From Ferrimonas lipolytica (lineage in GTDB: Bacteria > Pseudomonadota > Gammaproteobacteria > Enterobacterales > Shewanellaceae): 64,000 nucleotides of DNA. Both the position numbers and the translations under genes were made by a program. Location of the stretch: positions 2,046,001 through 2,110,000 of the forward strand of contig NZ_CP051180.1 of assembly GCF_012295575.1 (NCBI RefSeq). Reading direction: 5' to 3'. Numbering within the stretch: the first letter of the stretch is position 1; each line of letters begins with the position of its first letter. The notes under the pieces are model-generated. The model made no database searches, was not told where the DNA came from, and was given only the letters and a program-made list of their open reading frames with translations. Positions 9,853-63,593 of this stretch are shown piece by piece.

Positions 9853-9943
9853 CCATATATCAACAGGCAGGGACGGTAAAACTGTAATAGCTATTGCCCC
9901 TCTGCCATCCTCCTATCACGCCTCGATTCAACCGATAACGATA

Positions 9944-10237
9944 CGCTGTGTACCAATAAAGTGTTGTTCTTTACAATGCTGTTAAAGCACCGGCTAGGCG
10001 AGTATTGATACAAGGGGAAAGCACTACCGCCGGAAAGCTTCTGCCGCATTGGAGCAGTCCAGCGAAGCGTTTTGGACTGTGACCTAAGGCAAAGGGGGAT
10101 TCCAAAGGGGGCGGAGCTCCCCCACCTAATGCATACAAGAATGTGCCATCGCCACCGCGACATCCTCCCCTAAAAGCACCGAAATCGAAAGAGCCGAAGA
10201 CTTGATATAAACCTCAACACTTAACTGTGACACAGCC
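9944..10237 (+). mobile_element. MITE copy A (294 bp)
   Basis: Begins CGCTGTGTACCAATAAAGTG and ends with TTAACTGTGACACAGCC. It is flanked by the 8-bp direct repeat TAACGATA (9936-9943 and 10238-10245). No ORF with transposase features. The right end is of the ACTTAACTGTG subtype. Confidence 0.9.
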
Positions 10238-10334
10238 TAACGATACGCTAGCGGCGTCAAACTAACGCCTGAATCATTGCTGATAGCACAGCTGTGTTGA
10301 TTACAATTAACGTCTAATCTGGTGCTGCCAAGAC

Positions 10335-10363
10335 AAAAAAACGCACAACCAAAGTTGTGCGTT
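10335..10363 (-). terminator. Terminator of cydABX
   Basis: A 10-bp stem AACGCACAAC / GTTGTGCGTT with a CAAA loop; read on the minus strand it is followed by a U-tract (the A-run 10335-10341). It lies 26 bp after the cydX stop. Confidence 0.88.
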
Positions 10364-10388
10364 TTAGGATGTAATCAAACCCTAGGGT

Positions 10389-10496
10389 TTAATCAGATTC
10401 TTTGTCCAAGGTCTCTTGGGCTTCAAGCCATAGGGCATTGATAATGCCGAAGGCGCAAGCCAACAATACACCTAGGAACCAAACGAAATACCACAT
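10389..10496 (-). CDS. cydX: Cytochrome bd oxidase small subunit CydX
   Basis: 35 residues, MWYFVWFLGVLLACAFGIIN at the N-terminus followed by ALWLEAQ. This is the single-span CydX pattern, with the conserved MWYF-W-LG start and the INALWLE segment. CydX binds CydA and is needed to keep the haems and activity of cytochrome bd. It follows cydB by 21 bp and has a good AGGAG site 7 nt before ATG, so it is the third gene of the operon. It is too short for a default ORF scan. Confidence 0.95.
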   Translation of the reverse strand: MWYFVWFLGVLLACAFGIINALWLEAQETLDKESD

Positions 10497-10517
10497 GAGT
10501 TAATCTCCTACCTAGGC

Positions 10518-11657
10518 TTAGTACAGCGACGTTGAGTTCTTTTCGATGTGTTCTTCGCTAATGCGACCAAACATCTTGATGTAACACCAAACCGTGTACA
10601 ACAGAATCAACGGTACGAAGATAGCTGCAGCAACTACCATCACGTTCAGGGTCAACTCAGAGCTGGTTGCATCCCACATGGTTAGCGATTGGTTTGGGTT
10701 CTTAGACGACGGCATCACGAATGGGAACAGTGAAATTGCCGCAGTCAAAACCATACCCGCTAAGGCCAGTGAGGAGCATAAGAACGCAAAACCACAGCGA
10801 TTCAGCTTGGTTAATACAATAACCAACAACGGCATCGCTACCGCTAACAGCGGTGCCAAGTACAGCACAGGGTAAGCGGTAAAGTTATTCAACCACGCGC
10901 CAGCTTGCAGCTCTACAGTTTTGTTCAGTGGGTTTGAAGGTGCCATAGTATCGATGGTAGAGGTAATTACGTAACCATCAATAAAGTTCACCAGCCACAC
11001 ACCGCCGATAACAAACAGTGCCGACGCAACTGCAGCAAAGCCGACAGATACTATACGAGCACGCTCGCGCAGCTCACCTTCGGTCTTCATCTGAAGCCAT
11101 ACACCACCGTGCATCGTCAGCATAGCGAAACACATTACACCAGAGAGCAGCCCATAAGGGTTAAGCAAACCAAAGAAGCCGCCATCATAGTAGTTACGCA
11201 TCCACTCGTCGTAGTAAAACGGTACGCCTTGGAACAGGTTACCAAATGCCACACCGAAGATGATTGGCGGTACAAAGCCACCAATAAACAAGCCCCAGTC
11301 CCACGCATTACGCCAGCGAGGATCTTCGATTTTCGAGCGGTAATCGAAGCCGATAGGACGGAAGAACAACGCAAACAGGGTGATCACCATGGCAATGTAG
11401 AAGCCCGAGAAGGCCGCCCCAAAAACCATTGGCCATGCCGCAAACAGGGCACCACCAGCGGTGATTAACCACACTTGGTTACCATCCCAATGAGGTGCGA
11501 TCGAGTTAATCATCACTCGACGCTCATTATCAGTCTTACCTATGAACGGCAGCAATGCGCCTACGCCCATGTCAAAGCCATCAGTAACGGCAAAACCGAT
11601 CATCAGCACAACGATCAGCGCCCACCAAATAAGGCGCAGAGTTTCATAATCAAACAT
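10518..11657 (-). CDS. cydB: Cytochrome bd ubiquinol oxidase subunit II
   Basis: 379 residues, same as E. coli CydB. It starts [33 protein letters not shown] and contains [31 protein letters not shown], both diagnostic of CydB. About nine membrane spans. With CydA it forms the high-affinity quinol oxidase used at low oxygen; CydB gives the structural partner and oxygen route. Start overlaps the cydA stop by 8 bp. Confidence 0.98.
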
Positions 11658-13266
11658 GGTTTGGCGTCTCCTTGGCAGAGGAAGTCAATGCCGCATCAAA
11701 GCTGGCTTCCTTGGTTCCATTTTCAAAGTGGTAACGACCGGTCTTCAAGCTACTTGGCCCCAAACGGGCAAAGCGGAACATCAAGAACATCTCGATAACC
11801 AAGGCAACAGTGTAGAAACCACAGATAGCGATGATGGAGAAGATAAGATCAGCTTCACTTAGGCTAGAGGCCGACATGTAGGTTGGTAACACCTCAGCAA
11901 TGGTCCACGGTTGACGACCGTATTCCGCGACAAACCAACCGGAGATAATTGCGATCCACGGCGCAGGCAGAGTAAACAAAAGTGCTTTCAGCAACCACGG
12001 TTTCTCATCAACCTTCTGCTTACAGGACTGCCAGAACGCCAGACCAATCAGCAGAGCCATCAGCACCCCAAGACCAACCATCACACGGAAGCTCCAGAAC
12101 ATTGGACCTACTGCAGGTACAGAATCATCAACCGCTTTGGCGACCATACTGTTGTCCGCTTTAGATACGTCGTCGATGTAGCGCTTCAGCAGCATGCCGT
12201 AGCCTAAATCAACCTTAAGTTCTTCGTAGCGCGCCATCTCTTGGCTATTCAGCTGTTCATCTGACCGCAAGCGTTGCAGCAGTGCATAGCCTTCCATGCC
12301 GTTACGAATACGCTCCTCGTGCTCAACCTTGAGATCTTTGATGCCGGTTACCTGCTCGTCCAAAGAACGAGTCGCGATAATCCCCATTAGGTAAGGAATA
12401 CGTACCGCGTAATCAACGGTCATGTTTTCACTATCGGGAATACCAATCGCGGTAAATGGAGCCGGTGCAGGGTGAGTTTCAAACTCAGCTTCAATCGCAG
12501 CCAGTTTTACTTTTTGTACGTCACCAACTTCGTAGCCAGACTCATCACCGAGGATGATTACCGACACGATAGATGCCATACCAAAGGCTGCGGCAATAGA
12601 AAATGAACGACGAGCAAACGCCAGATCACGCCCTTTCAGAATGAAGTAAGAGCTGATGGCCAAGACAAACATCGCACCAGTAACGTAACCAGACGCGACA
12701 GTGTGCACAAATTTGACCTGAGCTACCGGGTTAAACAGCAGTTCACTAAAGGAGGTCATCTCCATACGCATGGTTTCGTAGTTAAACTTGCTGCCAACCG
12801 GGTTTTGCATCCAGCCGTTAGCAATCAGAATCCATAACGCCGATAAGTTAGAAGCAAGAGCGACCGACCAGGTTACCGCCAAGTGCTTCACTTTAGATAG
12901 GCGATCCCAACCAAAGAACATCAAACCAATCAGGGTTGATTCTAAGAAGAAGGCCATCAGTGCTTCAATCGCTAGCGGAGCACCAAAGATGTCACCAACG
13001 TAGTGTGAGTAGTAAGCCCAGTTGGTTCCAAACTGGAACTCCATGGTAATACCAGTAGTAACCCCCAAGGCGAAGTTGATAGCAAACAACTTACCCCAAT
13101 ATTTACACATATCTTTGTAAATCTGCTTACCAGTCATCACATACAGTGATTCCATAATGGCAAGCAGGAAAGTCATCCCCAAAGTTAGGGGGACAAATAT
13201 GAAGTGATACATCGCAGTCAGCGCGAACTGTAACCTCGATAGATCGACAACTTCATCGATAATCAT
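11650..13266 (-). CDS. cydA: Cytochrome bd ubiquinol oxidase subunit I
   Basis: 538 residues. The N-terminus ([22 protein letters not shown]) holds the haem-ligand His. Next come [26 protein letters not shown], the GDESGYE segment and the Q-loop with KYRxxL-like spacing (about 240-390). The C-terminal [12 protein letters not shown] precedes [16 protein letters not shown]. It carries haems b558, b595 and d, and oxidises ubiquinol. First gene of cydABX. Upstream DNA holds an ArcA-like GTTAA-TT-TTAAC repeat (13317-13328), in line with the usual oxygen control of cyd, though that is only inferred. Confidence 0.98.
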
Positions 13267-14005
13267 TGTGCGTTCTCCTCAACTCCATCCGACTTCAACT
13301 GTCAGACAAGCAACGCGTTAATTTTAACTAATCCGAAACGGGAACCATTTGATGCGAAAAACCAAGTGTGTGGTGAGTAAACCGGTGACATCCAATTCTT
13401 GGGGGGAAATACCAACAGAAAAAATCATGAAGGCGGATGAAGCCAAGTTTATTCATTTCACACTTTTACTAACAATTGCAGTACATATAAAAATGCAATT
13501 TGGTTATCGAAATTGCTCTGGCGATCGGCTAATCTCAAACCTGTTACAACGTTTTTATAACACTGCTAATATTCACACTCCAACCCTGCCAGCAAAGCAC
13601 AATCATTTCCGTGCGCAAGCTCACGAATAACACCAACCATCGCGAACAATAATGCCGTTACCGTCACAGTTATTTATCAATCAGGAATTAAGAGTTCGAT
13701 TTGGTTTGAGCAAGATCACATTCAAAAGTGACTTCAACTGAGCAATCCAGAGAGTTTCGCAGCGCCACACCAGTCATAACAATAGCTAAGTAAAATTAAC
13801 CAGCAACACTCCCTTAACAGCTAGCACAAGTAGTTTGTTAACATCGGCGGGCACAATTAGGCATTAGAAAAACTATCTTAAAAAAATCAATTTTTCTAGT
13901 TTGTTGGATTGGCGATCACCCCTTAACATGCACCGCATAGAAATCATCCATATCGCGCTTGATTGTTGTTCATTGAGCGAGACAATTAATATTCCGGAGC
14001 ACATT
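13267..14005. other. Intergenic region between cydA and the micro-ORF
   Basis: 739 bp without a convincing gene. It holds the cydA upstream region, including GTTAATTTTAAC at 13317-13328, and A/T-rich DNA. A weak inverted repeat AGAAAAA...TTTTTCT lies near 13866-13898. A 93-codon open frame at 13349 has no ribosome site and an atypical composition, so I do not call it. Confidence 0.5.
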
Positions 14006-14083
14006 ATGAAGCTATTAGTTAAAGAAATTTCCGCACTGTACCTGCGCAGTTTCAAAGACTTAGGTCAATCTCAGATCAAATAA
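14006..14083 (+). CDS. 25-residue putative micro-protein
   Basis: MKLLVKEISALYLRSFKDLG plus QSQIK, encoded with a GGAG site (13996-13999) 6 nt before ATG and followed 15 bp later by a strong terminator. The peptide is basic and amphipathic: Leu/Ile/Val/Phe on one face, Lys/Glu/Arg/Asp on the other. I do not recognise it. The tight RBS-ORF-terminator unit is what makes translation likely; the alternative is a short regulatory RNA whose 3' hairpin is that terminator. A longer in-frame start at 13901 lacks a ribosome site. Confidence 0.5.
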   Translation: MKLLVKEISALYLRSFKDLGQSQIK

Positions 14084-14098
14084 ATTGGTCAACAAAAA

Positions 14099-14125
14099 AC
14101 ACCGAGCAAATGCTCGGTGTTTTTG
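14099..14125 (+). terminator. Terminator after the 25-residue ORF
   Basis: Perfect 10-bp stem ACACCGAGCA / TGCTCGGTGT with an AA loop, then TTTTTG-like tract. Confidence 0.9.
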
Positions 14126-14247
14126 TATTAAGTCCCCATAACTGCCACAGAGATTAGCGCAACATTCGCTTCAGCTGTGCCCTACGCATTGCCTTTGCAA
14201 CCATCCCACATCACTATAGGTTTTCTATCTCTGCTGAGGACTAACCT

Positions 14248-15378
14248 GTGTTCATCTCAAACGCCATGGACAGCGGCAATATTGACGTCATTGCATGCGA
14301 CTCTGCCGACAACATTCGTCTCAATATTCGCAACGATCTCAACACCCAAAAACATCAATGGTTTCATTTTAGTTTGCACAATGCCGCCAACCAACAATGC
14401 CAACTATTGTTTGAAAACGCAGGCACAGCGGCATACCCCTCAGGCTGGCAAGATTATCGGGCAGTAGCCAGTTACGATCGCGAGACGTGGTTTCGGGTAG
14501 ACACCAGCTATCAAGACGGTCAGTTGGTGATCAATCACTTAGTGGAAGAAAATCTCATCTACTTTGCCTACTTCGCCCCATATTCGAGCGAACGCCATCG
14601 CGACCTCATTGCCGCATGTCAGGCTGACGATAAGGTTAACTACCTTGCCCTTGGGCAAACGATTGATGGTCAAAGCATGGATCTGCTGCAGATTGGTCAA
14701 GTAAGTGATGACAAGAAGATCTGCTGGCTAATTGCCCGCCAGCACCCCGGCGAAACGATGGCACAGTGGTGGATGGAGGGTGCCTTAGCAACGCTACTGG
14801 ATGACAGCAACGCTATTGGCCAAGCACTACTGCAGCAATGTGTGTTCTATATTGTGCCCAACATGAACCCCGATGGCAGCCGCCGCGGTCACCTTCGTCA
14901 CAATGCCACCGGCACCGACCTCAATCGTGCTTGGCGTAATACCAGCATAGATAACAGCCCAGAGGTCTATCTGGTTCGACAAAAAATGGAGCAGACCGGC
15001 GTCGATTTTTTCCTAGACGTTCATGGTGATGAAGGCTTGCCATATAACTTCATCGCTGGTGCTGAAGGAATCCCAAACTGGAGCAATACTCGCCAAGCTC
15101 AACTTGATGGCTACAAAGTGGCACTGGCTCAGGCTACCCCAGAGTTTCAAACCCAATTTGGCTATCCAATTGATGAGCCCGGCAAGGCCAATCTTGATGT
15201 TGGCAGCAACTTTATTGCCCAACACTTTGGTTGTTTATCAATGACTCTGGAGATGCCATTTAAGGACAACTCAGAGATGCCAAGCCCACTCTACGGTTGG
15301 AGCCCTGAGCGATCATCCGCATTGGCCCAGCCATGCCTGTTGGCATTATTGCGAACGTTAGAGCAGCAACTACTTTAA
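14248..15378 (+). CDS. M14-family cytosolic zinc carboxypeptidase
   Basis: 376 residues from a GTG start with GAGGA 8 nt upstream. An N-terminal beta-sandwich (about 1-125, WFHFSLHNAANQ...) precedes the M14 catalytic domain, as in bacterial relatives of eukaryotic cytosolic carboxypeptidases. Zinc ligands are seen in RQHPGETMAQWWMEG (His and Glu) and FFLDVHGDE (His). MNPDGSRRGHLRHNATGTDLNR supplies the substrate-arginine region, and MTLEMPFKDN the general-base Glu. No signal peptide, so cytoplasmic. The physiological substrate in bacteria is not known; tubulin-tail-type acidic peptides are the substrates of the eukaryotic relatives. Confidence 0.88.
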   Translation: MFISNAMDSGNIDVIACDSADNIRLNIRNDLNTQKHQWFHFSLHNAANQQCQLLFENAGTAAYPSGWQDYRAVASYDRETWFRVDTSYQDGQLVINHLVEENLIYFAYFAPYSSERHRDLIAACQADDKVNYLALGQTIDGQSMDLLQIGQVSDDKKICWLIARQHPGETMAQWWMEGALATLLDDSNAIGQALLQQCVFYIVPNMNPDGSRRGHLRHNATGTDLNRAWRNTSIDNSPEVYLVRQKMEQTGVDFFLDVHGDEGLPYNFIAGAEGIPNWSNTRQAQLDGYKVALAQATPEFQTQFGYPIDEPGKANLDVGSNFIAQHFGCLSMTLEMPFKDNSEMPSPLYGWSPERSSALAQPCLLALLRTLEQQLL

Positions 15379-15496
15379 TAATTTTCGACACCAGGGTGTC
15401 TTTCACCTTGGCGTCAAAAAATTGACAGACCCAACGCATTGCGTTAACTTTCTTGTAACATTTGCCAATATTGTTGGCATTGGCAAGGAGAGTTGA

Positions 15497-15913
15497 ATGT
15501 TATCTGTAATTATTATAATCGCTCTTGTTACATTGATTATCGCAGAGCTAGCGTTACGCCATGCTAGGTTGGCTCTTACTAGCAAGCCGCGGCCTCGATA
15601 CGTCACTAAAAAGTCTCAACGTGCCCAGCGGCTAAAACCTACTGCCAGCTCAGACAAGAATCCTTTATTCCGCTCACTGGTATCTCGGACAGAAAGCGAC
15701 AGCGTCTATTCGCCACGGCAACATCTCAAAACCGTTATCGAAGTCGATAAACAACGACGCTCTTTACAGATCTTAGGTTTTAAGCAAATGCCAACAAAAG
15801 TACAACTGAAACAACGAATGCGTTTGCTAGCGAAACGCTATCATCCCGACTTGGGCGGGGACATCCGCACTATGCAGCGCATTAATAAAGCTTACCAACT
15901 GTTAGTTAAGTGA
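15497..15913 (+). CDS. Membrane-anchored J-domain protein
   Basis: 138 residues. An N-terminal membrane span (LSVIIIIALVTLIIAELAL) is followed by a basic, Ser/Thr-rich linker and a C-terminal J-like domain (about 85-138): LGF...LKQRMRLLAKRYHPDLGGD..TMQRINKAYQLL, with the HPD tripeptide that stimulates the DnaK ATPase. It resembles small DnaJ-type co-chaperones tethered at the inner membrane. AAGGAG lies 7 nt before ATG. It stands alone; its client is unknown. Confidence 0.85.
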   Translation: MLSVIIIIALVTLIIAELALRHARLALTSKPRPRYVTKKSQRAQRLKPTASSDKNPLFRSLVSRTESDSVYSPRQHLKTVIEVDKQRRSLQILGFKQMPTKVQLKQRMRLLAKRYHPDLGGDIRTMQRINKAYQLLVK

Positions 15914-16064
15914 TACCACTTCAACGAATGATTGACCAATCTTACTGATTTAAACCAATATTAGGTATGCTTGCAGTTTTCCGTTTAAATTTCACACGAC
16001 AGCTGGACAAACATACAGTTATCAATGTATAAAACAAACACTGTACATTCATACATGGTTTTGT

Positions 16065-16772: not shown

Positions 16773-16799
16773 CGGTTTAGCCAGAATTAGCTAGCGCTG

Positions 16800-19823: not shown

Positions 19824-20101
19824 GGCTGTGTACCAACTAAGTGTTGTTCTTCCAATACTGTTCAAGCACCGGCTAGGCGAACTCCGATATAGAGGTTAAG
19901 CACTGCCGTCGTTGATCTTCTGCCGCATTGGAGCTGTTCAGCGAAGCGTTTTGGACTGCGACCTAAGGCAAAGGGGGCGGAGCTCCCCCCTAATGCATAC
20001 AAAAATGTGCCGTCGCCACCGCGACATCGTCCCCTAAAAGCACCGAAATCGGTAGAGCCGAAGGCTTGATATAAACTTCAACAGCTAACTACGACACAGC
20101 C
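19824..20101 (+). mobile_element. MITE copy B (278 bp)
   Basis: Starts GGCTGTGTACCAACTAAGTG and ends CAGCTAACTACGACACAGCC. Flanks CCAAAAAA and CAAAAAAA are a near match for an 8-bp duplication. The right flank is the A-run that forms the U-tract of the purL terminator. Confidence 0.9.
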
Positions 20102-20102
20102 C

Positions 20103-20130
20103 AAAAAAAAACACCGCCGCAGCGGTGTTT
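20103..20130 (-). terminator. Terminator of purL
   Basis: 9-bp stem AAACACCGC / GCGGTGTTT with a CGCA loop; on the minus strand it is followed by a U-run (20103-20111). It ends 20 bp after the purL stop, directly against the MITE. Confidence 0.85.
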
Positions 20131-26962: not shown

Positions 26963-27242
26963 AGCTGCGTGCCAACTAAGTGTTGTTCTTTCCAAGGCAG
27001 TCAAAGCACTGGCTAGGCGAGTCGCGATACAAAGGGTAAAGCACTATCGCTATTAATCTTCTGCTGCATTGGAGCAGTCCAGCAAAGGGGTTGGGACTGC
27101 ACCCTATGGCAAGGGGGATTCCAAACGGGGCGAAGATCTTCTTTGGGTGCCGTCGCCACCGCGACATCCTCCGCTCTCAAACAGCACAAACGGTAAAGCC
27201 GAAGGCTTGATATAAACCTCAACACTTAACTGTGACACCGCC
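26963..27242 (+). mobile_element. MITE copy C (280 bp)
   Basis: Ends AGCTGCGTGCCAACTAAGTG and ACTTAACTGTGACACCGCC. A perfect 8-bp duplication TAATAGAT flanks it (26955-26962 and 27243-27250). The terminal bases have begun to drift while the duplication is intact. Confidence 0.9.
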
Positions 27243-30975: not shown

Positions 30976-31226
30976 GGCTGTGTACCAATTAAGTGTTGTT
31001 CTTTTTAATACAGTTAAAGCATTGGCGAGTCGCGATACCAAGGGTAAAGCACTAGCGCTATTTATCTTCTGCCGCATTGAAGCAGTCCAGCCAAGGGTTT
31101 TGAATTGCGATCTAAGGCAAAGGATGATTTCCCCTTTGGGTGCCGTCGCCACCACGACATCATCCGCTACAAGCACCGCAATCGGTGAAGCCGAAGGCTT
31201 AAGATAAACTTCAACAGCTAACTACG
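30976..31226 (+). mobile_element. MITE copy D, right end truncated
   Basis: Begins GGCTGTGTACCAATTAAGTG; homology stops within the right inverted repeat after CAACAGCTAACTACG, so the final ACACAGCC is lost. Several internal deletions (251 bp in all). Confidence 0.85.
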
Positions 31227-39117: not shown

Positions 39118-39379
39118 GGCGCTGTACCAAGCAATGACCGTTTCCTGCGCATTAAGATGCCGACTAGGCGGGTTACAGAAAACAATAAAGCACTATTGGC
39201 TCTGAGCTTCAGCCGCATTAACGCTGTCCAGCGGAGCGTTTTAGACTGCAACCGGTGGCTGAGCGGGACGAAGCTTTCCCCTGACAACCGTCACAGCGGT
39301 GCCATAACTCAGCTGAAGTACGATAGTCGTTAGCGCCCTAGGCTTAAGACAAACTTAAACAGCCAACCCCAACACAGCA
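39118..39379 (+). mobile_element. MITE copy E, old and diverged (262 bp)
   Basis: Follows the family from GGCGCTGTACCAAGCAATGA to CCAACCCCAACACAGCA with many substitutions. GCATTAACGCTGTCCAGCGG and GAGCGTTTTAGACTGCAACC are still readable. No target duplication is left. A young copy follows after 8 bp. Confidence 0.75.
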
Positions 39380-39387
39380 TTTTTATA

Positions 39388-39676
39388 GGCTGTGTACCAA
39401 CTAAGTGTTGTTCTTTCCAAGGCGGTAAAAGCACCGGCTAGGCGAGTCGCGATACAAAGGGTAAGCACTACCGCTATTGATCTTCTGCCGCATTGGAGCA
39501 GTTCAGCGAAGCGTTTTGGACTGCGACCTAAGGCAAGGGGATTCCAAAGGGGGCGGATCTCCCCCTAATGCATATAAGAATGTGCCGTCGCCGCCGCGAC
39601 ATCCTCCCCTAAAAGCACCGCAATCGGTGAAGCCGAAGGCTTAAGATAAGCTTCAACAGCTAACTACGACACAGCC
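39388..39676 (+). mobile_element. MITE copy F (289 bp)
   Basis: Complete copy, GGCTGTGTACCAACTAAGTG to CAGCTAACTACGACACAGCC, with a perfect 8-bp duplication TTTTTATA (39380-39387 and 39677-39684). Confidence 0.95.
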
Positions 39677-47019: not shown

Positions 47020-47057
47020 AAAAAGGCCAACGACATAATAATGTCGTTGGCCTTTTT
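47020..47057 (+). terminator. Terminator of the minor-pilin operon
   Basis: A 17-bp perfect stem (AAAAAGGCCAACGACAT / reverse complement) with an AATA loop. Its T-run forms the left target duplication of the adjoining MITE. Symmetric, so it may also stop transcripts from the right. Confidence 0.93.
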
Positions 47058-47060
47058 ATT

Positions 47061-47340
47061 GGCTGTGTACCAACTAAGTGTTGTCCTTTCCAATGCTGTT
47101 AAAGCACCGGTTAGGCGAGTGTTGATACAAGGGGAAAGCACTACCGCCGTTGACCTTCTGCCGCATTGGAGCAGTCCAGCGAAGCGTTTTGGACTGCGAC
47201 CTAATTCCAAAGGGGGGCGAAGCTCCCCCTAATGCATACAAGAATGTGCCGTCGCCACCGTGACATAACCCCTAAAGAGTACTGCAATCGGTAAAGCCGA
47301 AGGCTTGATATAAACCTCAACACTTAACTATGACACAACC
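47061..47340 (+). mobile_element. MITE copy G (280 bp)
   Basis: GGCTGTGTACCAACTAAGTG to ACTTAACTATGACACAACC. Perfect 8-bp duplication TTTTTATT at 47053-47060 and 47341-47348, the left one inside the pilY1 terminator tail. Confidence 0.95.
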
Positions 47341-50617: not shown

Positions 50618-50933
50618 GGCTGTGTACCAACTAAGTGTTGTTCTTCCAATACTGTTAAAGCACCGGCTAGGCGAATGTTGATACAAGGGCAAAGCACTAC
50701 CGCCGGTGATCTTCTGCCGCATTGGAGCGGTCCAGCGAAGCGTTTTGGATTGCGACCTAAGACAAGGGGATTCCAAAGGGGGCGAAGCTCCACCCCTAAT
50801 GCACACAAGAATTGCATACAAGAATTGCATCCAAGAATGTGCCGTCGCCACCGCGACATTGTCCCCTAAAAGCACCGAAATCGGTGAAGCTGAAGGCTTA
50901 AGATAAACTTCAACAGCTAACTACGACACAGCC
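50618..50933 (+). mobile_element. MITE copy H (316 bp)
   Basis: GGCTGTGTACCAACTAAGTG to CAGCTAACTACGACACAGCC. Flanks TAAAAATG and TAAAATG match with one A lost. Longest copy because a CAAGAATTGCAT unit is repeated near 50808-50832. Confidence 0.92.
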
Positions 50934-51048: not shown

Positions 51049-52284
51049 TTAACCGCGACGGCGATTACCACTGCGACCTCCACCGCTGCGCTTCTTCGCT
51101 CGGCGTTTTTGCGCACCACGACTGTTTTTACTATTATCAGCCACTTCTTTAGTAAAGTCTGGTTCAAAACCCGGATACCACTGTTGCGGTATACGCTCAT
51201 CTAAAACTGATTCTATCTCTTCCAGCAGATACTCTTCACCTGGTGCCATCAGCGATACCGCTGTTCCCTCCAATCCAGCACGGCCACAACGGCCAATACG
51301 GTGTACATAGTCCTCAGCAATATAGGGCAGATCGTAATTAATAACGTACTGCAATGCTTGTACATCGATGCCCCGGGCCGCTACATCGGTAGCAACTAAG
51401 GCACGGATCTCTTTGTTTTTAAACTGCTGTAACCCACGTTCCCGTGCCCCTTGAGATTTATCACCATGAATAGCCTCAGTTTTAAGGCCATCTTTATTCA
51501 TCTCACGAGCGAGCTCATCGGCACCTTGCTTGGTCTTGGTAAAGATCAGTACCTGCTGCCAATTCTTGGAACCGATAAGGTACGAGGTAAACTCACGTTT
51601 GCGATCGCTATCAACCACATAAAGCATCTGGCTGACCTTAGCCGCCGCGCTGTTGCGTTGGTCTACCTGAATAAGCTCTGGTTCAGTCAGCATACGTTGG
51701 CTGAAATTAAACATGCCATCGTCAAAGGTGGCGGAGAACAACAGGTTCTGACGCTGATTCGGCAAACGGCGACGGATCTGATTGATCTCCTCTTTAAAGC
51801 CCATGTCGAGCATGCGATCCGCTTCATCAAATACCAAGTGTTGTACCGCATCTAAGCTTAAGATCTGTCGCGACAATAGATCCAATAGTCGTCCCGGCGT
51901 AGCAACTAAGATATCGATGCCCTGCTTAATTGCGACGATTTGCGGGCCAATACTGGCTCCGCCATAAGCGATGGCCACCTTAATGTCAGTATGAGATGCG
52001 TAGATACGCACATTGGCTTCAACCTGTTGCGCCAACTCACGAGTTGGCACCAGAACTAAAGCCCGTAAGCGGCTGCGGTCGAATTGCTGAGCTAATAGTT
52101 GCTGCAGAATCGGTAAAGTAAACGCAGCGGTTTTGCCGGTACCGGTTTGAGCACCAGCCATCACATCTTTGCCGAGCAAAATAGCAGGAATGGCCTGCGC
52201 TTGAATTGGGGTCGGCTGTTGATAGCCCTGCTCTGCAATGGCTCGGAGAAGGCAGGAATCAAGATTGAGATCAGCAAAAGTCAT
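51049..52284 (-). CDS. rhlE: DEAD-box ATP-dependent RNA helicase RhlE
   Basis: 411 residues. Motifs: Q motif QQPTPIQAQAIP, I AQTGTGKT, Ia PTRELAQQ, DEAD as VFDEADRMLDMGF, SAT in LLFSATF, then ATDVAARGID and VHRIGRCGRAG. A short basic C-tail (KRRAKKRSGGGRSGNRRRG) binds RNA. It unwinds structured RNA and helps ribosome assembly. The open frame runs about 130 codons further upstream into the neighbouring MITE, but homology starts at MTFADLNLDSCLL (52284). Confidence 0.95.
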   Translation of the reverse strand: MTFADLNLDSCLLRAIAEQGYQQPTPIQAQAIPAILLGKDVMAGAQTGTGKTAAFTLPILQQLLAQQFDRSRLRALVLVPTRELAQQVEANVRIYASHTDIKVAIAYGGASIGPQIVAIKQGIDILVATPGRLLDLLSRQILSLDAVQHLVFDEADRMLDMGFKEEINQIRRRLPNQRQNLLFSATFDDGMFNFSQRMLTEPELIQVDQRNSAAAKVSQMLYVVDSDRKREFTSYLIGSKNWQQVLIFTKTKQGADELAREMNKDGLKTEAIHGDKSQGARERGLQQFKNKEIRALVATDVAARGIDVQALQYVINYDLPYIAEDYVHRIGRCGRAGLEGTAVSLMAPGEEYLLEEIESVLDERIPQQWYPGFEPDFTKEVADNSKNSRGAQKRRAKKRSGGGRSGNRRRG

Positions 52285-52368
52285 AACGTCAGCCAAAGAA
52301 GGAGAAAGGCGCGCAGTGTAGCAGAATCCAGTCATCCGAAAGAGGCAAAAGCAACTAACAAAAAATAA

Positions 52369-52672
52369 GGCTGTGTCACAGTTAAGTGTTGAGGTTGATA
52401 TCAAGCCTTCGGCTCTGCCGGTTGCAGTACTCTTAAGGGCTATGTCGCGCTGGCGACGGCACATTCTTGGATGCAATTCTTGTATGCAATAGGGGGGGAG
52501 CTTTGCCCCTTTGGAATATCCCTTTGCCTTAGGTCGCTGTCCAAAACGCTTCGCTGGACTGCTCCAATGCGGCAGAAGATCAACGACGGTAGTGCTTTTC
52601 CCTTGTATCGCGACTCGGCTAGTCGGTGCTTTAACAGCATTGGAAAGAACAACACTTAGTTGGTACACCGCC
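52369..52672 (-). mobile_element. MITE copy I (304 bp, reverse)
   Basis: Inverted copy: GGCTGTGTCACAGTTAAGTG at the left, TTAGTTGGTACACCGCC at the right. Flanks AAAAATAA and AAAAAGAA agree at 7 of 8. It lies 84 bp upstream of the rhlE start, between gene and any distal promoter. Confidence 0.92.
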
Positions 52673-53062
52673 AAAAAGAATGCCACTAGCGCATCCAATT
52701 GCCTCCTTCACTCACGAATAACAAAGTTATATTGCGCAATTAATAAGCCACATCCCCCCTTGAAACAGATTTAATTCAAACAAACAGCAAAAACAAAACA
52801 AAAGTCACCATTGCTGAAATTTTTAAGTAACCACTTTGGCCCCAGTCAACCTTGACAAGGTGCCTAATCGAAGCGAATAAACAGTTCAGCGACTCAGCTC
52901 ATGTTTTTACAATGAAACCGACCCGATATTTTGAATTTTTTGTTCTAGTTGGGCAAGGTTGCATCTTTCTTTTGACTGCTGGTCATTTTTGCGACGACAT
53001 CACAGATTTTCTGCTGATGTTTTTGCCGTGTCCGATCAGCCCAATGTAGTAGGATACTTACG
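52673..53062. other. Intergenic region upstream of the DcuC-like gene
   Basis: 390 bp, A/T-rich, no supportable gene; no regulator site recognised. Confidence 0.4.
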
Positions 53063-55454: not shown

Positions 55455-55475
55455 ACCACATGGTATCTATTTAAT

Positions 55476-55766
55476 GGCCGTGTCACAGTTAAGTGTTGAG
55501 GTTTATATCAAGCCTTCGGCTGTACCGATTGCGGTGCTTTAGGGGAGGATGTCGCGATGGTGACGGCACATTCTTATTTGCATTAGGGGGGAGCTTCGCC
55601 CCCTTTGGAATCCCCCCTTGCCTTAGGTCGCAGTCCAAAACGTTTCGCTGAACTGCTCCAATGCGGCAGAAGATCAACGGCGGTAGTGCTTTCCCCTTGT
55701 AGCAAAACTCGCCTAGCTTGTGCTTTAACAGCATTGGCAAGAACAACACTTAATTGGTTCACAGCG
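55476..55766 (-). mobile_element. MITE copy J (291 bp, reverse)
   Basis: GGCCGTGTCACAGTTAAGTG to TTAATTGGTTCACAGCG, flanked by the perfect 8-bp duplication TATTTAAT (55468-55475 and 55767-55774). It sits between the SDR gene and the lld terminator. Confidence 0.95.
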
Positions 55767-55780
55767 TATTTAATGCGACA

Positions 55781-55809: not shown

Positions 55810-55833
55810 GCTTCGCTTTAGATCAACTAGGGA

Positions 55834-57791: not shown

Positions 57792-57801
57792 GATCCTGTC
57801 C

Positions 57802-58545
57802 TTACAACGCGTTGTTGATGAGTTCGGCGATATGCAGGGTTTTAATAGGGAACCCTTGCTTACGAATTACGCCATCGAGATGCAGTAGGCAGGAGGGATC
57901 GAAGCCAACGACGTAATCGGCGCCGGTGTTGCTATGGGCACGCGCCTTGTCTTTGCCCATCTTGCCGGACACACCACCCTCATCGAGCGCGAAGGTACCA
58001 CCAAAGCCACAGCATTCATCGCGGCGCTCCGGGTAAACCAGCTCAATGCCGTTAATGTTGCTCAACAGCGACTCCATCTTGTTATAACCGCTCCCCATGG
58101 TTTCCGATGGGCTGGCTAAGTCCAACATGCGAATGCCGTGACAGGACATCTGCATGCTCACTCTATGTGGAAATGGCTTGTTGAATTGTTTCAACCCATC
58201 AATATCGAACAGGAACTCAGTCAACTCCTTCAGCTTACCGATAACCGCGGTCGCTTCAGGGCTACAATCAAATTCATGGAAGTTCTCTTTAGCGGCGATC
58301 ATACATGATGCAGCAGGACAAACGATGTAGTCGCACTCTACCCCTTTGAATGCATTTAACAGCTTCAGGGTGGTTTTTTTTGCATCATCAAAACAGCCAG
58401 AGTTGGTCATTGGCTGGCCACAACAAGTTTGGCCTAGTGGGTACACTACTTCATGGCCAAGCTTTTCCAACAGTTCCACTGTGGCAATGCCAACCTGTGG
58501 TGTCATCTGGTTGACCAGACAGGGGGTAAATAGAGCGATTTTCAT
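57802..58545 (-). CDS. lldE: L-lactate dehydrogenase subunit LldE/LutA
   Basis: 247 residues with two CCG domains: QTCCGQPMTNSGC and DECCGFGGTFALDEGGVS, as in the heterodisulfide-reductase-like LutA/YkgE. First gene of lldEFG. A CRP-like site lies 68 bp upstream of its start. Confidence 0.95.
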   Translation of the reverse strand: MKIALFTPCLVNQMTPQVGIATVELLEKLGHEVVYPLGQTCCGQPMTNSGCFDDAKKTTLKLLNAFKGVECDYIVCPAASCMIAAKENFHEFDCSPEATAVIGKLKELTEFLFDIDGLKQFNKPFPHRVSMQMSCHGIRMLDLASPSETMGSGYNKMESLLSNINGIELVYPERRDECCGFGGTFALDEGGVSGKMGKDKARAHSNTGADYVVGFDPSCLLHLDGVIRKQGFPIKTLHIAELINNAL

Positions 58546-58995
58546 CGAGCACTCCGCAGTTAGCGTTATTAACGTAAGTCAGAGGATGATCACGTTTTAG
58601 CCGCCTCTATTCTGTGACATCAAGCACAACGAATATCGCCTTTGCCCTTTGTGACTATAAGGTTATTTTACGTGTTGTTATTGCGAGGCATTGCTATTGG
58701 CAACACATTTACAACCATTGACATAACGGCAAATTAACAACGAAGGGGTTTGGTCAGACCAATCAGAACAGTTACGATCAAGACAACCACCAAGCAGTAA
58801 CTTTATCGCAACTTATGAGTGGAAACTTTTAACCAATAATGAGATGCAGATCACCTTAATGGGAATTCAATGATATTGGTTGTCGGTACAGTCACATGCG
58901 CCAGCATCTGTGCGACAAAATGACTAAAAGTGGACAAAAAGCGGCGCTAGCAAACCGAATATACGGGTCACCCTATACCGCTTTGCAATAAGATA
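58546..58995. other. Intergenic region upstream of lldE
   Basis: 450 bp without a gene apart from the CRP-like site at 58613. The remainder is A/T-rich with no clear structure. Confidence 0.4.
58613..58628. promoter_or_regulatory. CRP-like site upstream of lldEFG
   Basis: TGTGA-CATCAA-GCACA: 9 of 10 consensus positions of TGTGA-N6-TCACA. Position is upstream of the lactate operon start, in keeping with carbon-source control; binding is inferred. Confidence 0.5.
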
Positions 58996-59194
58996 GGCTG
59001 TGTACCAACTAAGTGTTGTTCCTTCCAATGCGGTTACAGCACCGGCTAGCCGAGTCCCGATACAAAGGGGACGAAGCTCCCCCTAATGCATACAAGAATG
59101 TGCCGTCGCCACCGCGACATAACCCCTTAAGAGCACTGCAATCGGTACAGCCGAAGGCTCGATATAAACCTCAACACCTGACTGTGACACAACC
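58996..59194 (+). mobile_element. MITE copy K (199 bp, internal deletion)
   Basis: Both ends are present (GGCTGTGTACCAACTAAGTG; CTGACTGTGACACAACC), but about 90 bp including the CAGTCCA...TGGACTG hairpin is missing. Flanks ATAAGATA and ACAAGATA agree at 7 of 8. Confidence 0.92.
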
Positions 59195-59213
59195 ACAAGA
59201 TAGCTGCAGACAC

Positions 59214-59237
59214 AAAAAAGCCGCCTAACGGCGGCTT
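59214..59237 (-). terminator. Terminator of gsk
   Basis: 8-bp stem AAGCCGCC / GGCGGCTT with a TAAC loop and a U-run on the minus strand. Confidence 0.9.
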
Positions 59238-59263
59238 CTGTAGAGAAGGCATGTATGAAGAAC

Positions 59264-60565
59264 TTAACGCTCCCAGTACGCCTCTTCCAAGCTATCTTCA
59301 CGATCTGGCAAGCCACGGGACAAACGCGGGCTATGTTGAGCCAACACTTCGTAACTGACACGGTTGGCATATTTACAGATCTGTGCAAACGACGAGTAAC
59401 ACAAGCCACTATAACGGTGCTTACTTGAGGCTGGCAGGTTGAGACGGTGATAATCATTAGCGGACATATCATGAAGTAGTGCCGCTAATGCACCATCGCC
59501 GGCTCCATTGGTGTTAGAGATCTTCTCTGGCCCCCCCATAAACGGAGCAATGTGAGAGTACACCTTAAAGGCATCTGAGCAGAAATCTCGGCGCATAGGA
59601 CGAGAGAATTCAAACTCGTTGAACTCACCAATAGCACCAGGTAGCAATGGGTGACTGGTCTCACGCTTAAACTCATCGTCGGTCCAACCAGCGGTGTATA
59701 AACCGGAGGCGCCAGCAGTACACAGGATCAGATCGCACAGATCCAACGCTGACTCACAGGCTAATAATGGATCCTTTTGGCCCGTCAGCGCTTCTGCTTC
59801 CTCTTCATTCATCGCCAGCACGGTTACGTGTTCAGCAATGAAGTCGCGCCAGAATTGTGGGTCTTGCTCAATCAAGAAGCGAGTACCTAGGGTCAGTACT
59901 ACTGGTACATTGGCTTCTTTTGCAAAGCCAATAGCCTTCATGGCAGCTTGGGTGATGGGATCACCGCCAGCACGCATAAGGTAAGCAGTAAGCACCAAGG
60001 CAGAACCACTTTTTACCAATTCTTCGTCGATGAACTCGGCACGCAGTTTGTCCATGCTGCCTTTAGAGATAGCAAAGGTACGTTCGCCACAATCACTTAT
60101 CAGCGTAAAACAGCGACCAATGGAACCATCGACCGGTTGCAAGTGGTTCAGATCCACCCGAGAAGAGGTATTACATAAGTAGCGGTAGGCGTAGCTGCCG
60201 ATCTGCAGATTACGGCTCATCACACCAAACATCACCGAACGGTCATCCGCCAGCGTTGAGTAGTTGTGAAGTGTGTTGCCAATAGTACCGCCGGCAAACT
60301 CAGCCGTAACCAAATCGTGCTGCTGCAGTTCGCTGTACAATGCATGTGCGGCGGCATCATCTATCAGCATCGAATTGCCTTTGATCAGGCTATGGCGCTG
60401 AATGAATGCCTCATCCACGTGCGCTTCAATATCAACCAAGGTTTGGTCGATACCGGTGACGTGGGTGTGCTTAGGGCGGATTACCGGATTAAGCTCATTG
60501 GTAAGCGGATCCCGAGATTCGACGGGAAAGTAATGCTTGGACTTACGTTGACCTGGGAATTTCAT
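59264..60565 (-). CDS. gsk: Inosine-guanosine kinase
   Basis: 433 residues (E. coli 434), PfkB family. MKFPGQRKSKHYFPVESRDP is the conserved N-terminus. AGGTIGNTLHNYSTLADD, DCGERTFAISKG and NTNGAGDGALAALLHDM (with the catalytic Asp) follow. It phosphorylates inosine and guanosine to IMP and GMP for purine salvage. Confidence 0.97.
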   Translation of the reverse strand: MKFPGQRKSKHYFPVESRDPLTNELNPVIRPKHTHVTGIDQTLVDIEAHVDEAFIQRHSLIKGNSMLIDDAAAHALYSELQQHDLVTAEFAGGTIGNTLHNYSTLADDRSVMFGVMSRNLQIGSYAYRYLCNTSSRVDLNHLQPVDGSIGRCFTLISDCGERTFAISKGSMDKLRAEFIDEELVKSGSALVLTAYLMRAGGDPITQAAMKAIGFAKEANVPVVLTLGTRFLIEQDPQFWRDFIAEHVTVLAMNEEEAEALTGQKDPLLACESALDLCDLILCTAGASGLYTAGWTDDEFKRETSHPLLPGAIGEFNEFEFSRPMRRDFCSDAFKVYSHIAPFMGGPEKISNTNGAGDGALAALLHDMSANDYHRLNLPASSKHRYSGLCYSSFAQICKYANRVSYEVLAQHSPRLSRGLPDREDSLEEAYWER

Positions 60566-60820
60566 GCTGGGATCACTTCAGCTCGTTATCGCATTCCATG
60601 CAAAGATAATGTAGTTGCCATCGCGAATCATTCAATCCGTTCCTGCGATGCACAAGACCTTAGATTAAGGCCCGAATTTGGCGCAGAATTCTATCACATT
60701 CACCTCTGAATAGAAGCAACCCTCGCCCTCGAAACAAAAATAGTAAATAAACCAGTTCAGTTGGTTAACTCTCTAACCACTGGTATGTTTAAAGATAAGC
60801 CAACCTGTTACGGATAACTT

Positions 60821-61498
60821 ATGGTGCGTCTTCCATTTATAGTAGAACCAATGGCTGAACAGGCACTTTTGTTGCGATGGCCAAACGCCGATGCGTTAAC
60901 TCAAGTACGCCAATTGCAATTGGCACTTAACCAGTGCGATTGGGTGATCGATGTGATTGCCGCCAGTACCACCCTAGCGATCATAGGAGAGCGTCACAAC
61001 GGCGAGTTATCGCAGCTATTACAGCAATGGATGGCGGTTAACCCTATCGAAAAATTAGCCATCTGCGCCACTCAACACCATGCGCTACCAGTCTGCTATC
61101 ACCCCTCACTGGGGCTAGACCTCGATAAGGTTGCCGCAGCAACCAAGTTATCGGTGGCACAGATAATCGAATATCACCATCAAACGCTATACACCGTCGA
61201 CAGTACCGCGTTTAGCCCAGGCTTTGCTTATCTGGCTGGGTTACACCCGTCATTGCAGCTCCCCCGCCGGGAAACTCCTAGGTTAGAAGTGGCTGCCGGC
61301 AGCGTCGCCATCGCCGCCAGTCATAGTGCTATCTATCCACAACGCAGTGCAGCCGGTTGGCACATTATCGGCTCTTGCCCTGAGCCATTACTGAACCTTA
61401 CTAGCATGCCACCGTGTCGATTTCAGTTAGGCGATACCGTCAGCTTCGAGCCCATCTCGCTGCAGCAATATCAGCAATGGAGTGACAGTCATGATTGA
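60821..61498 (+). CDS. pxpB: 5-oxoprolinase subunit PxpB
   Basis: 225 residues, KipI/DUF213 family. Contains VCYHPSLGLDLDKVAAATKLSVAQIIEYHHQTLYTV, FSPGFAYLAGLHPSLQLPRRETPRLEVAAGSVAIAASHSAIYP and GWHIIGSCPEPL. With PxpC and PxpA it hydrolyses 5-oxoproline to glutamate with ATP. Overlaps pxpC by 17 bp. Confidence 0.95.
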   Translation: MVRLPFIVEPMAEQALLLRWPNADALTQVRQLQLALNQCDWVIDVIAASTTLAIIGERHNGELSQLLQQWMAVNPIEKLAICATQHHALPVCYHPSLGLDLDKVAAATKLSVAQIIEYHHQTLYTVDSTAFSPGFAYLAGLHPSLQLPRRETPRLEVAAGSVAIAASHSAIYPQRSAAGWHIIGSCPEPLLNLTSMPPCRFQLGDTVSFEPISLQQYQQWSDSHD

Positions 61499-62420
61499 GG
61501 TTATCCAAGCGGGACTGTTTACCACCGTTCAAGATCTAGGCCGCTACGGTTGGCGCCAACTGGGTTTTGCCCGCAGCGGTGCCATGGACCCCCTCGCGGC
61601 AAGCGCCGCCAATTTGTTGTTAGACCAAGACGTCAATATGCCGTTATTGGAATGTACCCTATTAGGACCAACTCTTAAGTTTCATTGCGACAGCGCCATC
61701 GTATTAACCGGCGCAACCATGACTGTTAAGGTCGATGGCAACTTGCACCAGCCAGGACAAACCATTGCCATAAAAGCCGGACAAACTGTAGTAATTGGGC
61801 GAGCAGCCCACGGCTGTCGTAGTTACCTCGCAATAAAAGGCGGGATATCAACCCCGGACGTGCTTGGCAGCGTCAGCTACCAAAGCCATGTCGGATTAGG
61901 ACTGCAGCTGCAACGAGACAACCGTTTGTCGATCACGCCGTATACTGGCCCGGTGGCTGATTGCCATAGTTGGGTTGGTTTAACCTGGCCGCTAACACCT
62001 GTGTTAGCGGTGTTTGCCAGTGCTCACACCGATCAGCTGCAAGATGGCATAGAAGCATTAAGCACACAGCCATGGCAGTTGAGCCAGCATGCCAATCGCA
62101 TCGGTTTACGACTTTCCGGCCAACCACTCAACCATAGTCGGTTAAATGACATGCCCTCAGAGCCGGTATTGCCTGGCACGGTGCAGTTACCACCCAACGG
62201 ACTACCACTGATTCTAGGTGCCGATAGTCAATCAACCGGTGGCTACCCTAAAGTTGCTCAGGTATGTGAAAGCAGCTTAACCACCTTAGCGCAGTTACGC
62301 CCCAACCAAGAGTTATGGTTCGAGCCAATCAGTTTAGAAGAAGCAAAACTTAGGCAGAGACGCCAGCAACGTCATTTAAAAATACTGCGCCAAGCGGCTC
62401 ATGCTAAATGGCTACAATGA
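61482..62420 (+). CDS. pxpC: 5-oxoprolinase subunit PxpC
   Basis: 312 residues, KipA family. IEVIQAGLFTTVQDLGRYGWRQLGFARSGAMDPLA, SYLAIKGGISTPDVLGS, and PVLPGTVQLPPNGLPLILGADSQSTGGYPKVAQV are the family signatures. Forms the ATP-dependent half with PxpB. Overlaps pxpA by 13 bp. Confidence 0.95.
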   Translation: MTVMIEVIQAGLFTTVQDLGRYGWRQLGFARSGAMDPLAASAANLLLDQDVNMPLLECTLLGPTLKFHCDSAIVLTGATMTVKVDGNLHQPGQTIAIKAGQTVVIGRAAHGCRSYLAIKGGISTPDVLGSVSYQSHVGLGLQLQRDNRLSITPYTGPVADCHSWVGLTWPLTPVLAVFASAHTDQLQDGIEALSTQPWQLSQHANRIGLRLSGQPLNHSRLNDMPSEPVLPGTVQLPPNGLPLILGADSQSTGGYPKVAQVCESSLTTLAQLRPNQELWFEPISLEEAKLRQRRQQRHLKILRQAAHAKWLQ

Positions 62421-63157
62421 CCAAGCTGGATCTTAATGGTGACATTGGTGAGCAGGCTGGCGACGATGCCGCTTTGTTGCCGTTATTGAGTTCAGCCAAT
62501 ATATGCTGCGGTAGCCACGCGGGAAATACGGCACACACCTTAGCTACTATTACACTCGCGCAGCAACACCAGATCGCCATTGGTGCGCACCCAGGCTACG
62601 ACGACCGCGCTAATTTTGGCAGGCTTGAACTTAATCTCAGTAATAAACAGATCCTCGATTCATTGCAGCAACAGTTGGCACTATTCACCACATTAATCGA
62701 TTCAGTTGGCGCCACGATGCACCATATTAAGCTTCATGGCGCGCTCTACCATCGTGGTAATCATCAAGTCACTTTGGCAGAGCAGATCTGCGCTTGGTTA
62801 GTAACGACATACCCAAACTGCATGCTCTATTGCCAAGCCCAAAGCCCACTGGTAGCAATAGCCACCGCCCATGGCCTGTCGATAAAGCAAGAGGGCTTTG
62901 CTGACCGACGCTACCTCAATAGTGGCTTGCTAGCACCTCGAACCATGGCAGGCAGCTGCATCGCTGAGCCGCAGCAAGTATTGACACAGGTGCAACAGAT
63001 GGTGGAGCAGCGCAGCGTTACTACGATAAACGGCCAGCAACTGCCGTTAACCGTGGATACCCTCTGCCTCCACGGTGATAGCATCACAGCTTTAGAGTCT
63101 GCCCAGAACATTCACCGTTGGTGCGCTAACAACAACATTGTTATCGACGCTAATTGA
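62408..63157 (+). CDS. pxpA: 5-oxoprolinase subunit PxpA (LamB/YcsF family)
   Basis: 249 residues. LDLNGDIGEQAGDDAALLPLLSSANICCGSHAGN, GAHPGYDD, HIKLHGALYH, EGFADRRYL and LCLHGDS follow YbgL/PxpA. ATG at 62408 or 62417 (MTKLDLNG) are both possible; the second lies nearer the conserved start. Last gene of the pxp operon. Confidence 0.95.
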   Translation: MATMTKLDLNGDIGEQAGDDAALLPLLSSANICCGSHAGNTAHTLATITLAQQHQIAIGAHPGYDDRANFGRLELNLSNKQILDSLQQQLALFTTLIDSVGATMHHIKLHGALYHRGNHQVTLAEQICAWLVTTYPNCMLYCQAQSPLVAIATAHGLSIKQEGFADRRYLNSGLLAPRTMAGSCIAEPQQVLTQVQQMVEQRSVTTINGQQLPLTVDTLCLHGDSITALESAQNIHRWCANNNIVIDAN

Positions 63158-63173
63158 TCTTCATTAGCGCGAA

Positions 63174-63193
63174 CACTTAACAATTGTTAAGTG
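63174..63193. repeat. Perfect 20-bp palindrome after pxpA
   Basis: CACTTAACAATTGTTAAGTG is its own reverse complement, 16 bp after the pxpA stop. No U-run, and no loop, so a protein-binding site or a weak end-of-operon stem is more likely than an intrinsic terminator. Confidence 0.7.
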
Positions 63194-63273
63194 GCTAACA
63201 ACATACGGTAAATCGAATCAATATCAACATTAGACTTAACTAATTTAATGGCTATGTGGTAGCCTCAAAAAAA

Positions 63274-63566
63274 GGCTATGTCGTAGTTAGCTGTTGAAGC
63301 TTATCTTAGGCCTTTGGCTTCACCGATTTCGGTGCTTTTAGGGGACTATGTCGCGGTGGCGACGGTACATTCTTGTATGCATTAGCGGGGAGCTTCGCCC
63401 CCTTTGGAATCCCCCTTTGCCTTAGGTCGCAGTCCAAAACGCTTCGCTGAACTGCTCCAATGCGGCAGAAGATCAATAGCGTTAGTGCTTTACCCTTTGT
63501 ATCAAAACTTGCCTAGCCAGTGCTTTAACAGCCTTAGAAAGAACAACACTTAATTGGTACACAGCC
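63274..63566 (-). mobile_element. MITE copy L (293 bp, reverse)
   Basis: GGCTATGTCGTAGTTAGCTG to TTAATTGGTACACAGCC, flanked by the perfect 8-bp duplication CAAAAAAA (63266-63273 and 63567-63574). It ends 27 bp before the next start codon. Confidence 0.95.
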
Positions 63567-63593
63567 CAAAAAAAACACTCCAAGGAAAAGATT

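Follow-up and report, generated by a model that had tools for sequence, protein, structure and literature searches.

Twelve copies of a MITE and a further short one, as listed by an earlier sequence-only reading, were found in the window analysed, a 64,000-nucleotide stretch from Ferrimonas lipolytica (contig NZ_CP051180.1), where two of the copies lie in the terminators of purL and of a pilY1-like gene (Table 1). The six perfect 8-bp direct repeats claimed by that reading were all verified, and 7/8 agreements were found at 19824 and 52369 and, by eye, at 39118 and 58996. No transposase match was obtained at any copy, in line with the claim that none is encoded; the two degraded transposase places of the genome both lie outside the window.

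Table 1. MITE copies and associated terminators in the window (window coordinates).
Feature	Position	Strand	Details
Short copy (~104 bp), internal deletion retaining only the two ends	3976..4079	+	profile hits 3977-4023, 4016-4079
Full-length copy	9944..10237	+	TSD TAACGATA 8/8
Full-length copy in purL terminator T-tract	19824..20101	+	TSD 7/8; site empty in relatives
purL terminator: right TSD and hairpin	20102..20130 (approximate)	-	stem AAACACCGC/GCGGTGTTT, score 23
Full-length copy	26963..27242	+	TSD TAATAGAT 8/8
Copy lacking its right end; continues into unrelated or rearranged sequence	30976..31226	+	
Diverged copy directly past terminator hairpin, in tandem with 39388 copy	39118..39379	+	TSD 7/8 by eye
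Full-length copy; TSD common to preceding 39118 copy	39388..39676	+	TSD TTTTTATA 8/8
Terminator hairpin 3' of pilY1-like gene	47023..47054 (derived)	+	AAGGCCAACGACAT-AATA-ATGTCGTTGGCCTT, score 35
Full-length copy in T-tract of pilY1-like gene's terminator	47061..47340	+	TSD TTTTTATT 8/8
Full-length copy	50618..50933	+	flanks 5/8, without indel
Full-length copy	52369..52672	-	TSD 7/8
Full-length copy	55476..55766	-	TSD TATTTAAT 8/8
Internally deleted copy, 199 bp	58996..59194	+	TSD 7/8 by eye
Full-length copy (L075)	63274..63566	-	TSD CAAAAAAA 8/8

The F. lipolytica genome (4.13 Mb) was found to hold approximately 300 copies, or approximately 320 by extrapolation from sampled stretches. A 21-base pattern of the left end, allowing at most three mismatches, occurred 161 + 122 times in the 4.13 Mb, while its reversed control occurred 0 times. 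A strand bias among the left-end matches listed was rejected, as known minus-strand copies were absent from the list. In a sample of 60 stretches of 20 kb, 93 merged loci covered 2.1% of the DNA, an average of approximately one locus per 13 kb, with the 12 merged loci of the window representing approximately 2.4 times the genome average. The one copy per 5 kb of the earlier reading thus proved to be a local value and not a typical one. The MITE consensus is 291 bp, with 94 copies spanning 247-316 bp. No ORF spanned any of the 93 copies measuring 150 bp or more.

Target site duplications (TSDs) were examined in 65 full-length copies, a set that contains the best BLAST hits and is not a random sample, with the flanks agreeing at 8/8 in 22 and at 7/8 in 20 (42/65 with at least 7/8). 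Flanks re-paired at random gave 8/8 in 0.5% and 7/8 in 2.3%, values so far below those observed that chance was ruled against as the origin of the repeats, and per-base agreement was found to peak at a length of 8. Among 29 further copies collected later, nine had 8/8 and nine had 7/8 (18/29 with at least 7/8). The TSDs were A+T-rich, with the second base outside being G+C in 77-80%. At one locus, the empty site sought was identified: the purL terminator occurs without the element in 10/10 same-genus genomes searched. A gene-order comparison between the pilY1-like region and F. senticii did not lead to an empty site. Because the purL terminator is present without the element in these relatives, terminators are regarded as part of the host site and not of the repeat. 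Short length, inverted ends, a fixed 8-bp TSD and the empty purL site support the original identification of the family as a MITE.

An IS1595-like parent had been guessed, a family for which 8-bp TSDs are described in a section of PMC8101967, and this was supported by intact IS1595-family elements with MITE-like ends and 8-bp TSDs in other Ferrimonas genomes. By eye, 24 of the first 26 nucleotides of the ends are identical, with the corresponding BLAST matches being short (87%). The MITE has its ends and 8-bp TSD in common with the Ferrimonas futtsuensis type of the family and its relatives ISCosp3 and ISAchd1 but, unlike these, has no transposase. The query transposase was 59% identical to ISCosp3 and 57% to ISAchd1 (IS names from source records). 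Scores of the parent-type transposase were 42.9 bits for PF12762 (DDE_Tnp_IS1595; cut-off 27), 185.4 bits for the IS1595 model NF033547 (cut-off 75) and, at the N-terminal zinc ribbon, 45.5 bits for NF050000 (cut-off 28), with only 21 for the Pfam zinc ribbon PF12760, below 25.4. Comparison with IS elements of the same genome, which had been proposed, revealed a degraded IS1595 relative with MITE-like ends but no intact parent: the transposase query led to two degraded places only, and a whole-genome PF12762 search to one degraded match. IS6 elements also generate 8-bp TSDs; the idea of an IS6 parent, drawn from this length, was set aside given the IS1595 elements with these ends in the genus.

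Targeting of terminators was absent from the sequence-only reading. Using a hairpin scan that lets weak T-tracts through, 34 of 75 copies (45%) were found where the stem of a hairpin terminator meets its T-tract, the set being the 94 full copies minus 19 with flanks below 6/8 (that is, TSDs of at least 6/8); the remaining 41 sites had no such terminator. A second sample showed terminators at 11/29 copies. Controls gave 0.8% for shuffled flanks, 6.7% for matched noncoding 8-mers, and 17% both for matched 8-mers up to 120 nt after a stop codon (255/1500) and for those in convergent gaps (260/1500), with gene 3' ends being the most demanding of these controls. Folding energies of -12 or lower were found at 31/75 copy sites versus 57/750 controls. 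The T-tract begins 0-6 nt into the TSD in the 34 cases, with 37 other hairpins scattered across approximately 200 bp, and in 17/20 testable cases the hairpin lay 3' of a gene on the same strand. Convergent gaps held 23/52 copies, compared to 114 of 685 gaps. As the duplicated 8 bp constitute the T-tract, the terminator is rebuilt on insertion.

Among intact IS1595 elements, 16/22 members of one supported transposase clade were located at terminators and 6/22 away from them, while 0/17 outside the clade had a terminator in register, although these clade counts are inflated by near-identical IS copies and the terminator label requires five changes on the transposase tree. The tree consists of 22 + 17 rows, with five of the 12 G036 copies entered. 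Outside it are elements for which no ends could be found or in which the flank on the hairpin side was cut (L134, L135, L139, L150, L200, L201, L204, L207, L238 and L241, among others), the relic L138 (ends found, without a terminator) and L165, which was off register with a score of 23. In L055 and L158 one side is cut, with the hairpin still visible; the ends of L179, L180 and L215 were found in one of two analyses, which the counts follow; and L233, off register and scoring 30.5 in one analysis and 7 in another, was counted as no. The G036 IS1595 copies, which fall outside the clade, have A+T-rich TSDs and a palindromic target, with none in register. In the F. lipolytica genome, the full-length IS1595 relic lies away from a terminator (score 0), and by eye no TSD match was seen at the second relic.

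It is likely that the family is a non-autonomous MITE spread by a now-dead IS1595-family transposase belonging to, or resembling, the clade that prefers terminator T-tracts. Counting against this reading are the 41 of 75 sites lacking such a terminator, the six clade members away from terminators, the inflated clade counts, the full-length relic off a terminator and the second relic with its unmatched flanks. Alternatively, an ordinary IS1595 MITE may have entered any A+T-rich octamer flanked by G+C, with selection leaving the copies at gene ends, where terminator T-tracts are the commonest such octamers. This explanation, which is considered unlikely, fits the lack of ORF-spanned copies, their frequency in convergent gaps and the composition of the TSDs and their flanks, and tolerance is also invoked for pneumococcal repeats at gene 3' ends in part of PMC3049150. 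The gene-3'-end control takes away some of the enrichment (17% versus 6.7%), and the odds on target choice are slightly lowered as a result. However, 45% of copies exceeds 17% even against gene-3'-end or convergent-gap controls, the T-tract peaks in register with the TSD, and the G036 copies combine A+T-rich TSDs with a different target. Site choice by the transposase, over survival of harmless insertions, is favoured but not proven.

That the repeat is retained because it serves the host, whether as terminator, attenuator or small RNA, is highly improbable. While the plus strand of one copy has a better fold than its shuffled versions (z -3.8) and copies are located at gene ends, the minus-strand z is only -1.5, the consensus fold of 94 copies is approximately -3 kcal/mol with ten pairs and frequent two-sided changes at one of them (23/92), and terminators belong to the host site. 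No Rfam family above its gathering score overlapped any copy, and with the folding results this led to rejection of a conserved RNA role. Continued mobility, powered by a plasmid-borne transposase or by one in other strains, is improbable, despite the intact relatives in the genus and the relatives of the parent-type transposase found on plasmids: the closest pair among the 94 copies is 96.4% identical, the genome has relics only, and full-length matches were found in 0/59 other genomes searched. A plasmid search with window DNA gave no match. The MITE family is probably old and dead.

ERIC and the IS-derived MITEAba12 resemble the Ferrimonas MITE in being short, non-coding and intergenic with TIRs. 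Up to 711 copies are given for ERIC in part of PMC10969869, and the sections of PMC6382973 on MITEAba12 describe 9-bp TSDs, the parent ISAba12 and no target-sequence trend; the Ferrimonas MITE differs from both in its 8-bp TSD with IS1595 ends. SPRITE repeats of pneumococcus are also concentrated at gene 3' ends (PMC3049150, in part), but SPRITE is itself terminator-like and without an established TSD, whereas for the Ferrimonas MITE the host terminator is the target. The Ferrimonas element is a DNA element of the DDE type. Group IIC introns, in contrast, are retroelements that use RNA pairing and are not known to form a TSD by staggered DDE cutting. No description of terminator targeting for the IS1595 family was found in the literature searched, and, by title and abstract start, the open-licence literature contained no DDE insertion sequence or MITE targeting terminators and no paper on Ferrimonas MITEs; novelty is provisional, the primary IS1595 review and ISfinder being outside the search.

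In the proposed mechanism, an IS1595-family transposase, now dead in this genome, would have multiplied the 291-bp MITE to approximately 300 copies, and the terminator-preferring clade may have been the one that moved it. Transposases of this clade would prefer the T-tract of intrinsic (hairpin) terminators, with staggered cutting producing an 8-bp duplication that at such sites is the T-tract. Recognition of hairpin and T-tract perhaps depends on RNA polymerase as it terminates or on local opening of the DNA; the transposase, the polymerase or the opened DNA may choose the site. A terminator rebuilt beside the element would leave the gene end its stop signal, presumably still functional, and many copies would thus be tolerable; those that landed at such stop signals probably do little harm. 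Tentatively, the IS1595 clade may have a dedicated structural target, the intrinsic terminator, whose T-tract is duplicated and which is regenerated, with the MITE as its amplified non-autonomous passenger. This would amount to a safe-harbour strategy on the part of a DDE element and to convergence with group IIC introns.

If true, terminator targeting would explain how approximately 300 copies can be borne by a compact bacterial genome when no examined copy lies within a gene, and would provide a DDE transposon whose safe-harbour target is defined by structure and occurs genome-wide. A testable question arises as to whether the transposase senses hairpin DNA, transcription termination or sequence alone, and contrasting clade members with other IS1595 elements, for example the G036 copies and their palindromic target, would offer natural pairs for mapping target choice.

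All of the MITE copies listed by the sequence-only reading were found to be present in the window. Across the whole genome, a single Ferrimonas contig of 4.13 Mb in which the window occupies bases 2046001-2110000, a 21-base pattern for the left end (up to 3 mismatches) gave 283 matches, against none for a reversed control. A search profile made from ten window copies identified 93 merged loci in 60 sampled 20-kb stretches, covering 2.1% of the sampled DNA, with 12 of the stretches having none. The proposed density of one copy per 5 kb therefore holds for the window (12 merged loci in 64 kb) but is not typical of the genome, the window being approximately 2.4 times denser. Copies spanning both ends (n = 94) measured 247-316 bp, with a consensus of 291 bp and two dominant types of right end (35/94 and 26/94). 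Median identity between copies was 85.5% (1000 sampled pairs) and the closest pair among the 94 shared 96.4%; the family is old, and nothing points to a burst in recent times. No full-length match was found among the 59 other genomes searched, partial matches being the MITE core in G010 and short pieces only in G005, G008 and G012.

The 8-bp flanks, held to be target site duplications (TSDs), proved not to be chance: 22 of 65 full copies agreed at 8/8 bases and 20 at 7/8, compared to 0.5% and 2.3% on random re-pairing, with 9 and 9, respectively, among 29 further copies. At purL, where a copy lies 49 nt from the end of the gene, the terminator was present and the element absent in all ten same-genus genomes searched (up to 130 nt after purL; nine scored by script, and L190 by eye, its hairpin lying outside the scanned range). 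The best-matching genome, G010, is identical to the window's genome in the bases of the stem. As read from these sequences, the repeat has evidently transposed. Head-to-tail clusters were also identified (see table); for L036 and the pair in the window, the duplicated 8 bp is common to adjacent copies, as though an existing TSD had become the next target.

Coordinates of features in the window, in other stretches fetched (L-numbers) and in the window's genome
Feature	Sequence	Position	Strand	Remark
MITE copy at purL	window	19824..20101	+	in T-tract of purL terminator
MITE cluster	window	39118-39676		head-to-tail
MITE cluster	L036	9391-10299		head-to-tail
MITE cluster	L033	9298-9661		head-to-tail
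MITE cluster	L042	15999-16548		head-to-tail
tRNA array	window	2180-3818		11 genes (Met-CAT, Leu-TAG, Gln-TTG), near-identical repeated blocks
87-nt tandem repeat	window	2772-3078		contains degenerate tRNA-like pieces
DEAD-box helicase ORF	window	51049-52698	-	open through MITE copy 52369-52672
Rfam V_AS7 (RF02819, 'Vibrio RNA AS7')	window	63616-63784	-	111 bits, cut-off 90
Degraded IS1595 transposase	window's genome	3637573-3638520		full-length, nine stops
Degraded IS1595 transposase	window's genome	3351122-3351479		internally deleted

The MITE-derived N-terminus of the helicase ORF is probably spurious, since the DEAD domain begins only at residue 163. The V_AS7 match, here in a Ferrimonas, adjoins the MITE copy at 63274, and a pilY1-like gene has its best outside match in F. 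senticii.

Intrinsic terminators were scored on the joined empty site (cut-off 18); this required a hairpin with 5 or more pairs in its stem and, after it, a T-rich tract that overlaps the TSD. Among copies with a TSD of at least 6/8, 34 of 75 sites reached the cut-off, compared to 0.8% with shuffled flanks and 6.7% of noncoding 8-mers matched for A+T and for G+C of two bases each side. Taken by themselves, the initial 65 copies included 28 such sites (4.4% at A+T-matched random sites); of the 29 fetched later, 11 scored at least 18 and 8 at least 20. Folding energy, a different measure, gave 31/75 against 57/750 controls. The T-tract starts 0-6 nt into the TSD in 34 cases, while 37 other hairpins are scattered from -40 to +95. 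For 20 terminators from stretches with called genes (simple ORF calls), 17 lie downstream of a same-strand gene, 14 of these at 43-80 nt. No ORF spanned any of the 93 profile hits that were 150 bp or longer. Only a minority of terminators is occupied, as approximately 378 strong terminator-like sites in the same sample remain free.

The suggestion of an IS1595-like mobiliser was supported, as intact elements with the same ends encode an IS1595-family transposase in two same-genus genomes, G008 with 4 copies and G011 with 5, of which two have a split frame. These two genomes match proteins assigned by name to Ferrimonas futtsuensis and Ferrimonas sp. YFM. The window's genome holds two IS1595 transposase places, both degraded; the full-length relic keeps the ends GGCTGTGT...ACACAGCC and a 7/8 TSD, and does not lie at a terminator. 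Insertion sequence copies lie in terminators in G011 (5/5), in G008 (2/4, the other two being cut off at contig ends), in G179 of another family (5/5 fetched copies), and singly in G286, G165, G024 and one Aeromonas salmonicida plasmid. On a maximum-likelihood transposase tree (39 rows, of which 31 are distinct), the 16 elements sited at terminators all fell within one group of 22 (support 99/97), 6 members of which are not at terminators, and none of 17 elements outside it had an in-register terminator. These counts are inflated by near-identical copies, and 5 changes are required to map the terminator label onto the tree. Outside this group, G036, from another family of the order, carries twelve near-identical IS1595 elements (L164-L175) at palindromic CTG(N)-N8-(N)CAG, with CAG after the TSD in 12/12 and CTG before it in 10/12 (by eye); their target is, from sequence, palindromic. 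Core-bearing elements in G010 differ in their ends: four (L058, L061, L064, L067) carry the core (approximately positions 65-257) without recognisable ends of MITE type, one of them between other inverted repeats, GTTTGATGTTG...CAACATCAAAC, while others have related ends, and 4/6 with a readable MITE-type end adjoin a terminator (two scored, two by eye).

Insertion into G+C-flanked A+T octamers only, combined with selection, could partly explain these sites. The second base outside the TSD is G+C in 77-80%, and 8-mers matched in the same way score as terminators in 17% of cases both within 120 nt after a stop codon (255/1500) and in convergent gaps (260/1500). The excess over these gene-end controls is smaller but remains (binomial ~1e-8), and for this reason selection is a partial explanation, with targeting more likely to account for the remainder. 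Candidate signals for such targeting would be opened DNA, a polymerase that has paused, or DNA in hairpin or cruciform shape.

Neither MITEs nor IS1595 nor high copy numbers are new in themselves; searches of an open-licence library, outside which most subscription journals and ISfinder lie, found no paper describing terminator insertion by a DDE insertion sequence or MITE. Group IIC introns are inserted beside terminator stem-loops (PMC7923331), a likeness in site to the MITE and the IS1595 clade. An 8-bp staggered cut within the T-tract would put the T-tract after the stem again, so that the terminator would be rebuilt beside the element; this follows from the sequence, as a predicted terminator.
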